A DNA stretch of 64,000 nt. It comes from Plebeiibacterium marinum (lineage in GTDB: Bacteria; Bacteroidota; Bacteroidia; Bacteroidales; Marinilabiliaceae). This document shows, in pieces, positions 14,837 to 17,179 of the stretch. Where the stretch lies: positions 1 through 64,000 of the forward strand of contig NZ_JAPDPI010000017.1 of NCBI RefSeq assembly GCF_026013615.1. The letters run 5' to 3'. The position numbers were made by a program, and so were the translations under genes. Numbering within the stretch: the first letter of the stretch is position 1; each line of letters opens with the position of its first letter. The notes beneath the pieces were generated by a model that saw only the letters and a list, made by a program, of their open reading frames with translations, had not been told where the DNA came from and ran no database searches.

Positions 14837-16267
14837 TTGCATTATATCAATATGTTTTCATTTCAGTCAACTCAACTTTATTTTCTGCGTTTATTATTAA
14901 TTTTATGCATCCCTGCAACTTTCAATACCAATGATATTACTGCACAAAAAGGCATGTATCATACCTTTTATATAGATTCCCTAATTAAGAACACCACAAT
15001 AAACGATAGCCTTGACTATAACATTGAAAAATGGAAAGCCTTACCTCTTGATCAACGTTTTTTTATTTTAGACACTATAGAATATAATAGAAATCAAACA
15101 TCCACCTTGATTCCTAATGTAAGAAATTACAAAGACTTTGTGATGAGCTTAAAGTTTTATCCCGATCCAAACCTTAAAATAGATTTTAAACCAACCCTGG
15201 TAAACAAGGAACTGTTATATCAGGAAGATGGCTATTTTTTTGTTTTGAACAACAACAGGCAAACTGATTTTATTAAAACAGAACCTTTTTCAATCAAAAA
15301 GAAAAATGAAGAAATCTTTATTTCAAATCCTCACCTGGTAAAACACGTATTAAAAACCATACCCGAACCACATAGGTTAATCACCGACAGGCAACATTTA
15401 AACAAAAGATCTGCTGAAGAGGGGATCAGGAGTCTTTTAACACGCGATATAAACAAACCCGACAAACTAAAAGAAAAGAAAAAAATTAAAGGCCCCTGGA
15501 CATTAACAGGTATAGAAAGCATTCAACTATCGCAGGCATATCTTGAAAACTGGACAAAAGGTGGTGAAAACTCGGTATCCTTATTGAGTGATTTGCTTTT
15601 AAATGCCAATTACAAAAAGGATAAAAATGAATGGGAAAACTACGTACGCCATAAAGTAGGAGTAATAAGCTCTGAAAGCTATGCCACACAAATTAATACC
15701 GACCAGATTGAAATGAATAGTAAATACGGTATGAAAGCATCAAAAAGATGGTACTATTCTGCATTATACGATTTTAAGACTCAATTCTTCAATGGTTACA
15801 ATAATAAAAACAGGGAAGAAATAATCTCGGGATTTATGTCGCCGGCCTATTTTACCGTTGCCTTAGGCATGGATTACAAAAAAGATAAAGTTTTTACTTT
15901 GCTGCTCTCTCCCCTTACTGCCAAACTAACCTACGTTATGGATACGGTTAAGGTGAATCAGGATAAATACATTAAAAACGGTAAGCTGGAAGGAAAAAGA
16001 TCTGCATTTAGTAACGGAGCATCGATAGTAAACAATATCAACTGGAAAATATCCACCGAATTATCCCTTGTCTCAAAAATAGATGCCTATATTAGTTATT
16101 TTACTAAAGACGACATACAACAAGTTGATTGGGAATTGATTTTTAACATGAGAGTAAACAGGTTTTTATCAACCAGAATCAACACGCAACTCAGATATTT
16201 TAATAATGAATCAGATAAAATTCAGTTAAGAGAGAATTTTACCATTGGGTTTAATTACAAATTTTAG
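14837..16267 (+). CDS. DUF3078-like outer-membrane-associated protein
   Basis: 476 aa; TGIESIQLSQAYLENWTKGGENSVSLLSDLLLNANYKKDKNEWEN pattern, beta-rich C-terminus ending F-x-F. Confidence 0.75.
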   Translation: MHYINMFSFQSTQLYFLRLLLILCIPATFNTNDITAQKGMYHTFYIDSLIKNTTINDSLDYNIEKWKALPLDQRFFILDTIEYNRNQTSTLIPNVRNYKDFVMSLKFYPDPNLKIDFKPTLVNKELLYQEDGYFFVLNNNRQTDFIKTEPFSIKKKNEEIFISNPHLVKHVLKTIPEPHRLITDRQHLNKRSAEEGIRSLLTRDINKPDKLKEKKKIKGPWTLTGIESIQLSQAYLENWTKGGENSVSLLSDLLLNANYKKDKNEWENYVRHKVGVISSESYATQINTDQIEMNSKYGMKASKRWYYSALYDFKTQFFNGYNNKNREEIISGFMSPAYFTVALGMDYKKDKVFTLLLSPLTAKLTYVMDTVKVNQDKYIKNGKLEGKRSAFSNGASIVNNINWKISTELSLVSKIDAYISYFTKDDIQQVDWELIFNMRVNRFLSTRINTQLRYFNNESDKIQLRENFTIGFNYKF

Positions 16268-16325
16268 CCTTTCATCAAATAATTTATGCTTTTCGTAAAT
16301 TTTAACATTTTTTCACTAAATATTT

Positions 16326-16356
16326 TTTGGCACAAACAATTAAGCCATTATATTTG
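16326..16356 (+). promoter_or_regulatory. Bacteroidota-type promoter (TTTG - 19 bp - TAnnTTTG)
   Basis: TTTG at 16326-16329, 19-bp spacer, TATATTTG at 16349-16356. Confidence 0.6.
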
Positions 16357-16362
16357 TAATAG

Positions 16363-16496
16363 CAATTAAGAAATGAAATACCCAAATAGGGTAACAAAAT
16401 ATTTAAAGTCTTAAATTTTCTCATAGTTTAGGGTTAGGTTTGGTTAAAGATCGAAAGCCGTTGTCATTTTCTAAGACAGCGGCTTTCACTTTTTTA
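16363..16496 (+). ncRNA. Candidate ~130-nt small RNA / short transcript
   Basis: Bounded by the promoter above and the perfectly placed terminator at 16453-16496; only a 13-codon ORF inside (MKYPNRVTKYLKS*). Confidence 0.45.
16453..16496 (+). terminator. Rho-independent terminator
   Basis: GAAAGCCGTTGTC-attttctaa-GACAGCGGCTTTC-actTTTTTTA (one G-T wobble in the stem). Confidence 0.85.
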
Positions 16497-16564
16497 TAGC
16501 AGTTAGTTTAAATAATTATCGTTAAATTTCAGATCTTTATAATCATCTATAAAACAATTAATTT

Positions 16565-17179
16565 ATGCTATTAAAGATATATCCGGAAAACCCGAATCCC
16601 AAGGACATTATATATGTTACAGAAGAACTTCGCAAAGGTGCCGTAGTGATATACCCCACAGACACTGTATACGGAATTGGGTGCGATATCAATAATTCAA
16701 AGGCCGTAGAACGTGTTGCCAGGTTAAAAAACATAAACCTTAAAAAAGAACACCTCTCATTTATCTGTTACGACCTAAGCCACATTTCCGATTATACAAA
16801 AAGCCTGAGCAACAATACATTTAAAATCATGAAACGTAACCTGCCCGGGCCTTTCACCTTTATTTTAAATGCCAACAGCAACGTTCCCAAACTTTTTAAA
16901 AACAACAAAAAAACAGTAGGGATCAGGATACCTGACAATAATATCATTCGCGATTTAGTAAAAGAACTGGGGAATCCCATCCTGAGCACTTCCGTTATAG
17001 ATGAGGACGACATTATTGAATACACCACTGATCCGGAGTTAATATACGAAAAGTTCTCAAAACATGTGGATATTGTCATTGATGGCGGTTACGGAAACAA
17101 CACCCCCTCTACAATTGTCAACTGCACAAATGGAGACCTTGAAATTATCAGACAAGGGAAAGGCGAATTAGAACACTAA
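16565..17179 (+). CDS. L-threonylcarbamoyladenylate synthase (Sua5/YciO/YrdC family)
   Basis: 204 aa; GAVVIYPTDTVYGIGCDI...PGPFTFIL...VGIRIPDN...ILSTSV. Confidence 0.93.
   Translation: MLLKIYPENPNPKDIIYVTEELRKGAVVIYPTDTVYGIGCDINNSKAVERVARLKNINLKKEHLSFICYDLSHISDYTKSLSNNTFKIMKRNLPGPFTFILNANSNVPKLFKNNKKTVGIRIPDNNIIRDLVKELGNPILSTSVIDEDDIIEYTTDPELIYEKFSKHVDIVIDGGYGNNTPSTIVNCTNGDLEIIRQGKGELEH

Follow-up and report, generated by a model that had tools for sequence, protein, structure and literature searches.

The window analysed here, a 64,000-nt stretch of Plebeiibacterium marinum DNA (contig NZ_JAPDPI010000017.1, positions 1 to 64,000), holds a compact predicted transcription unit between a DUF3078-family gene and tsaC, with the following features.

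14852–16267, plus strand: DUF3078-family gene (PF11276, Pfam 97 bits), the upstream neighbour
16326–16356, plus strand: sigmaAB-type Bacteroidota promoter, TTTG-N19-TATATTTG, seen in the sequence (TTTG at 16326–16329, a 19-nt spacer, TATATTTG at 16349–16356)
16361–16495, plus strand: predicted sRNA of ~135 nt, its start placed from the promoter to within ±3 nt
16373–16414, plus strand: 13-codon ORF, incidental, absent from orthologous long forms
16379–16393, plus strand: 5′ hairpin TACCC-AAATA-GGGTA, conserved in structure and not in sequence
16396–16419, plus strand: AU-rich linker AAAATATTTAAAGTCTTAAATTTT, conserved among the long forms of the genus
16420–16450, plus strand: single-stranded core CTCATAGTTTAGGGTTAGGTTTGGTTAAAGA, the defining element, recognized by conservation, copies and model match
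16453–16495, plus strand: intrinsic terminator, recognized in the sequence and by family covariation, with a 13-bp stem (GAAAGCCGTTGTC, 16453–16465, paired with GACAGCGGCTTTC, 16475–16487), a 9-nt loop, then AC and T6 (16490–16495)
16565–17179, plus strand: tsaC/Sua5-YrdC gene (PF01300, Pfam 177 bits), a neighbour outside the unit

The promoter and the terminator, with its 13-bp stem and T6, had been described in a sequence-only reading of this DNA, and their coordinates were confirmed; our own terminator scan, limited to loops of ≤8 nt, made no call at the site, where the actual loop is 9 nt. The decisive conserved block, which lies between the 13-codon ORF and the terminator, was absent from that reading. 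The predicted transcript folds with a z score of −4.7 against shuffled sequences (0 of 200 as good), and ~60 nt of 5′ sequence lie ahead of its core; in this long form, folding predicts a stem that may partly cover the core. On the minus strand, a 40-codon ORF (16302–16424) begins at an ATG within the core's complement and reads MRKFKTLNIL..., resembling a gene start, and the sRNA might have originated as an inverted copy of one.

Searching the genome with the whole unit returned five places, four of which share only the part from window position 16420 onward. The block common to all five copies is CTCATAGTTTAGGGTTAGGTTTGGTTAAAGATTG; each copy has its own terminator, different in sequence. The four copies outside the window have a Bacteroidota −7 box immediately ahead of the block, and two of these boxes are weaker. 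Within the Marinilabiliaceae, the central ~20 nt occur in 46 of 71 genomes and in 16 of 21 genera (counted with a 23-mer at ≤3 mismatches, for which control matches were ~0), and outside this family, within the same order, only a shorter 20-mer was found, at 2 mismatches. The named matches are all Marinilabiliaceae, including Labilibacter, Saccharicrinis, Plebeiobacterium, Carboxylicivirga, Marinilabilia, Anaerophaga, Thermophagus, Geofilum, Alkaliflexus and others. A terminator follows 0–8 nt past the core in 60 of the 62 distinct occurrences from relatives, with stems that differ and are well formed, and the remaining two lie on contigs of one bacterium MAG and one Bacteroidales MAG. Alignment of 42 core sequences gives 19 invariant columns in a row, and in the corresponding 42-unit alignment 11 of 12 terminator pairs show two-sided changes, a signal that falls sharply when the partners are slid against each other. 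Both sides have changed in 98 cells, compared with 34 ± 5 after shuffling, and the covariation score is 0.584 against 0.296; these and the other shuffle tests and E values reported here were run on related sequences and are hence optimistic. Copy number is five in the window genome, up to 11 pattern matches in the genus and usually one or two in other genera. Since the core recurs five times in the genome and terminators follow 60 of 62 occurrences, the window unit is not a product of chance; judged by these comparisons, it is a real free-standing sRNA gene and belongs to a group of near-identical RNAs that appears to have been kept through most of the history of the Marinilabiliaceae.

The window copy is, from its synteny, of the ancestral type, which invariably comes shortly after the DUF3078 gene: at each of the 39 distinct family loci in which this gene could be traced, it lies on the same strand, 154–656 nt after the stop codon. 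This linkage, together with the lack in the window of any other terminator between the DUF3078 gene and the unit, would fit an RNA that is mainly a 3′-UTR product, the DUF3078 mRNA running into the unit and ending at its terminator and the sRNA arising partly by processing. We regard such an origin as improbable, however, since the unit has its own promoter in the window and in orthologues, free-standing paralogues occur elsewhere, and Marinilabilia-type loci carry another sRNA, with its own terminator, between the DUF3078 gene and the main RNA. Nor is conservation limited to a terminator of the DUF3078 gene: the unpaired core is the most conserved part, and four of the five genome copies lie away from the DUF3078 locus, with promoters of their own.

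A leader or attenuator of tsaC, which the sequence-only reading had entertained and which the position of tsaC, codirectional and 70 nt further on, would allow, is very improbable; tsaC adjoins the RNA at only one relative's locus (L068; several flanks are short), the conserved neighbour is the upstream DUF3078 gene (39 of 39 loci), and tsaC appears to be there by chance. The 13-codon ORF is indeed present, but it does not encode a conserved peptide, being absent from the orthologues, which at that position preserve a hairpin although its arms have changed. We find it hardly credible that the unit is a coding or antisense element, whether through this peptide or through the minus-strand ORF at 16302–16424: both ORFs exist and the minus-strand start MRKFK recurs in several relatives, yet the plus-strand ORF is not conserved, the minus-strand ORF diverges after ~9 codons and is missing in short copies, and the core is conserved at the nucleotide level. 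The suggestion of a 6S-like RNA falls away as well, with no Rfam 6S match in the window and none even at E ≤ 10 in 16250–16570, and with a core that is an open single strand. Among the options first proposed, a trans-acting sRNA proved the best, and it is well supported.

The long form of the genus has, ahead of the core, a promoter ~70 nt upstream, a small 5′ hairpin and an AU-rich linker. TAnnTTTG lies at −69 to −75 in five orthologues (L056, L057, L068, L092, L122) and is also visible in two more (L073, L075). The hairpin is kept in 8 of 8 genus long forms while its arms have changed (among others TACCC/GGGTA, CAACC/GGTTG, AGCTC/GAGCT, TAGCAA/TTGCTA), with combined shuffle p values of 3e-6 for the genus and 1e-8 for Carboxylicivirga that are optimistic, the sequences being related. 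Short extra copies occur mainly in the window's genus. An exact TAnnTTTG is found at 16 of 23 of them, mostly at −14 from the core and usually with TTG 19–20 nt further upstream, and because this promoter stands at a fixed distance, the short RNA should begin at or near the core. Many short copies (L002–L004, L048, L049, L059–L065) keep an AACGTT palindrome in the terminator loop, which could mediate loop-loop contact between copies; alternatively, it may reflect recent duplication. In one genome of the genus (G045, loci L195 and L196) the family has expanded to 28 model matches, in which tandem cores share one leader and some copies have a predicted RNA start at GGGUUAGG, lacking the CUCAUAG part.

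FopS RNAs, reported for Bacteroidaceae, are multicopy, have sigmaABfr promoters and consist of a single-stranded 5′ stretch followed by a terminator; they bind RbpB in their 5′ part, and pairing of that part with the susC start region represses translation (PMC11697453). The window RNA resembles FopS of B. thetaiotaomicron in architecture, with several paralogues per genome, a canonical sigmaABfr promoter and a predicted single-stranded 5′ seed ahead of an intrinsic terminator, the short copies opening with the core and continuing into their sole hairpin. Their 5′ sequences also look related, UUUUUCAU(A/G)G...UUAG...GGUUAA. Unlike FopS, the window RNA has an inserted base (CUCAUAG), an extra invariant block, GGGUUAGGUUUGG, and a 5′ hairpin in the long form, and it does not prefer SusC starts.

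Further relatives, of the TTTTCATAATTTTGGGTTAGGGTTAAGG and TTTTTCATAGATTAGGGTTTAGG types, were reached through a covariance model built on the window type and through a degenerate pattern; matches of this model outside the family that score below ~40 bits are real relatives mixed with plain terminators. In the window genome the TTTTTCATAGATTAGGGTTTAGG type forms two tandem pairs, on C98 (93600–94000, L190) and C132 (70100–70650, L357), behind sigma54-like −24/−12 sequences (GTGGCATATCATTTGCAAAT; TCGGCACGGGTTTTGATA). The sigma54 promoters described here are consensus matches, and a gene for RpoN is present in 68 of 71 Marinilabiliaceae genomes. One relative's locus (L199) carries TTGGCACAGGGTTTGCTTT, a near-perfect sigma54 promoter. 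In Marinilabilia, Alkaliflexus and other loci a second tandem RNA, TTTTTTCATAGGTTTAGGTTAGGTTAATTAGG with a terminator, lies upstream of the main one, and one family has tandem FopS-like arrays in which every unit has its own promoter and terminator. Two such arrays (L358, G252:C89:1-1100; L360, G149:C58:18100-19100) have a spacing of roughly 180–310 nt and a terminator hairpin of the GCUGYGAAGC type.

Outside the Marinilabiliaceae, TTTTTCATAGTTAAGGTTTAGGTTAA is kept in several families in the order miaB, element, small membrane-protein gene, acetyl-CoA hydrolase gene. This miaB-type element occurs in Bacteroides finegoldii, Phocaeicola massiliensis (record unannotated) and Parabacteroides distasonis, and the loci found (L368, Bacteroides, 1501–1580; L369, Phocaeicola; L370, Parabacteroides; L315–L326) are mostly single copy. 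It shares with the window RNA the TTTTTCATAGTTAAGGTTTAGGTTAA 5′ element (GGTTTTGGTTAA in Parabacteroides), a TAnnTTTG-like promoter and a hairpin, and differs from it in being mostly single copy, in its fixed synteny and in being nearer to FopS (31 bits). Two IMG/VR viral contigs (L366, L367) carry the exact miaB-type element, through either phage carriage or mis-sorted host DNA. Counted on family handles (f1, f12, f20, f22, f59, f60, f80, f88, f91, f105, f109), RNAs of predicted FopS type span at least 10 Bacteroidales families and often stand behind sigma54-like promoters. Vibrio Qrr sRNAs likewise exist in several near-identical copies, a likeness that is analogy only and extends to the multicopy state and to the sigma54-like promoters of some relatives, whereas the window copy has a sigmaABfr-type promoter.

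By score, the window RNA stands outside the Rfam FopS family (RF04319), whose model gave no match to the window element even at E ≤ 10; no Rfam family reached threshold in the 64-kb window, and none relevant appeared at E ≤ 10 around the unit. With its threshold at 56 bits, RF04319 does align end to end, below threshold, with a member of the C98/C132 pairs (38.7 bits), with a tandem element (36.8 bits) and with others (36.6, 33.0, 32.1 and 30.1 bits), and it scores 31.3 bits, also below threshold, against the Bacteroides miaB element. Conversely, a primary-sequence model built from 26 non-window FopS-like elements found the window core as its single match in the 64 kb (E 9e-6). Across 1.44 Mb of the window genome, the same model gave nine matches at E < 0.01, comprising the five window-type copies and four sister units that belonged to the training set, with the next match at E 0.16. 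From this model match and the RF04319 alignments to the sister RNAs, we infer kinship with FopS-like RNAs, the window RNA apparently being a diverged FopS-type branch related through its 5′ element. GibS of B. thetaiotaomicron, which has the seed R1 in common with FopS, resembles the window RNA in its conserved unpaired 5′ seed and terminator and is unlike it in its length of 145 nt, two seeds, two middle hairpins, other promoter motif and response to N-acetylglucosamine (PMC7366714).

Together, the comparisons establish at the sequence level a promoter of its own, a core predicted to be mostly unpaired, a covarying terminator, paralogues with promoters of their own and a 5′ element that looks related to FopS-like RNAs. 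That this is a free-standing FopS-type sRNA gene acting by pairing in trans has, in our judgement, about an even chance of being correct, and it is the FopS precedent that leads us to place trans pairing first and protein capture second. An RNA of ~135 nt (~70–75 nt for the short paralogues) would be transcribed and act in trans by base-pairing to target RNAs through its unpaired block GGGUUAGGUUUGGUUAA, probably assisted, as FopS is, by RbpB or a similar RRM protein. The translation or stability of the paired targets would be lowered, and copies behind different promoters would allow this regulation to be engaged in different conditions. Read as its complement, the 5′ element resembles a start region (...CUAUGAAAA), which fits the FopS mode of pairing with the susC start.

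Over ~1000 start regions from ~25% of the window genome, with start codons picked mechanically, shuffled cores paired at least as well as the real core and tended to pair better, with stronger best pairings. A stretch scanned in a relative showed no excess of long complementary matches, and a search of the window genome for a perfect antisense partner (22-mer, ≤3 mismatches) returned only the copies themselves. At SusC start regions the window core showed no preference in the genome sample (SusC mean +0.5 kcal/mol relative to other genes), whereas the sister RNAs of the same genome pair more strongly there than at other genes by −2.3 to −3.8 kcal/mol, weak evidence that derives mostly from a U-run and CAU. 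SusC mRNAs are not favoured as targets of the window branch.

CUCAUAG, which would pair with a start codon, has been lost at L196, L106 and L011 and in units two and three of L073, with GGGUUAGGUUUGGUUAA standing at the transcript start in some of these copies (L196, L106). All of them keep GGGUUAGGUUUGGUUAA, which points to the G/U-rich block as the selected part. The same retention favours a protein-binding or decoy RNA, in which the GG steps every 5–6 nt in GGGUUAGGUUUGG would be sites for an RNA-binding protein, for example an RRM protein like RbpA or RbpB, which the extra copies would titrate. The block is kept more strictly than pairing usually demands, the 5–6-nt GG spacing occurs in most types, start regions avoid the core rather than match it, and RbpB is bound by the 5′ part of FopS (PMC11697453). 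On the other hand, the related FopS works by pairing, and the analysis yielded no protein partner; a regex scan of 2.2 Mb, uninformative on presence, found no RRM proteins. As the window type, unlike its sisters, does not prefer SusC start sites, we consider protein capture a serious, though less likely, account. Eukaryotic RRM proteins bind UAGGG-like repeats, which for the window core is an analogy only. A G-quadruplex in the window copy was considered and dropped, the fourth GG run being missing.

While trans pairing is our preferred reading, the RNA could also be a FopS descendant whose mechanism has switched, start-codon pairing having been lost and the GG-rich block, with GG every 5–6 nt, now capturing an RRM protein. 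We judge this unlikely; if true, extra copies behind different promoters would tune the whole FopS-like network.

Few Bacteroidota sRNAs have a known mechanism, and FopS and GibS are two of them. The comparisons presented here would extend the FopS type beyond the Bacteroidaceae, to the Marinilabiliaceae and several other Bacteroidales families, and they add a conserved single-copy miaB locus in common gut genera and sigma54-like promoters. They also add a branch whose core is unusually invariant and shows no SusC preference, which makes the binding partner of the conserved 5′ element directly testable.
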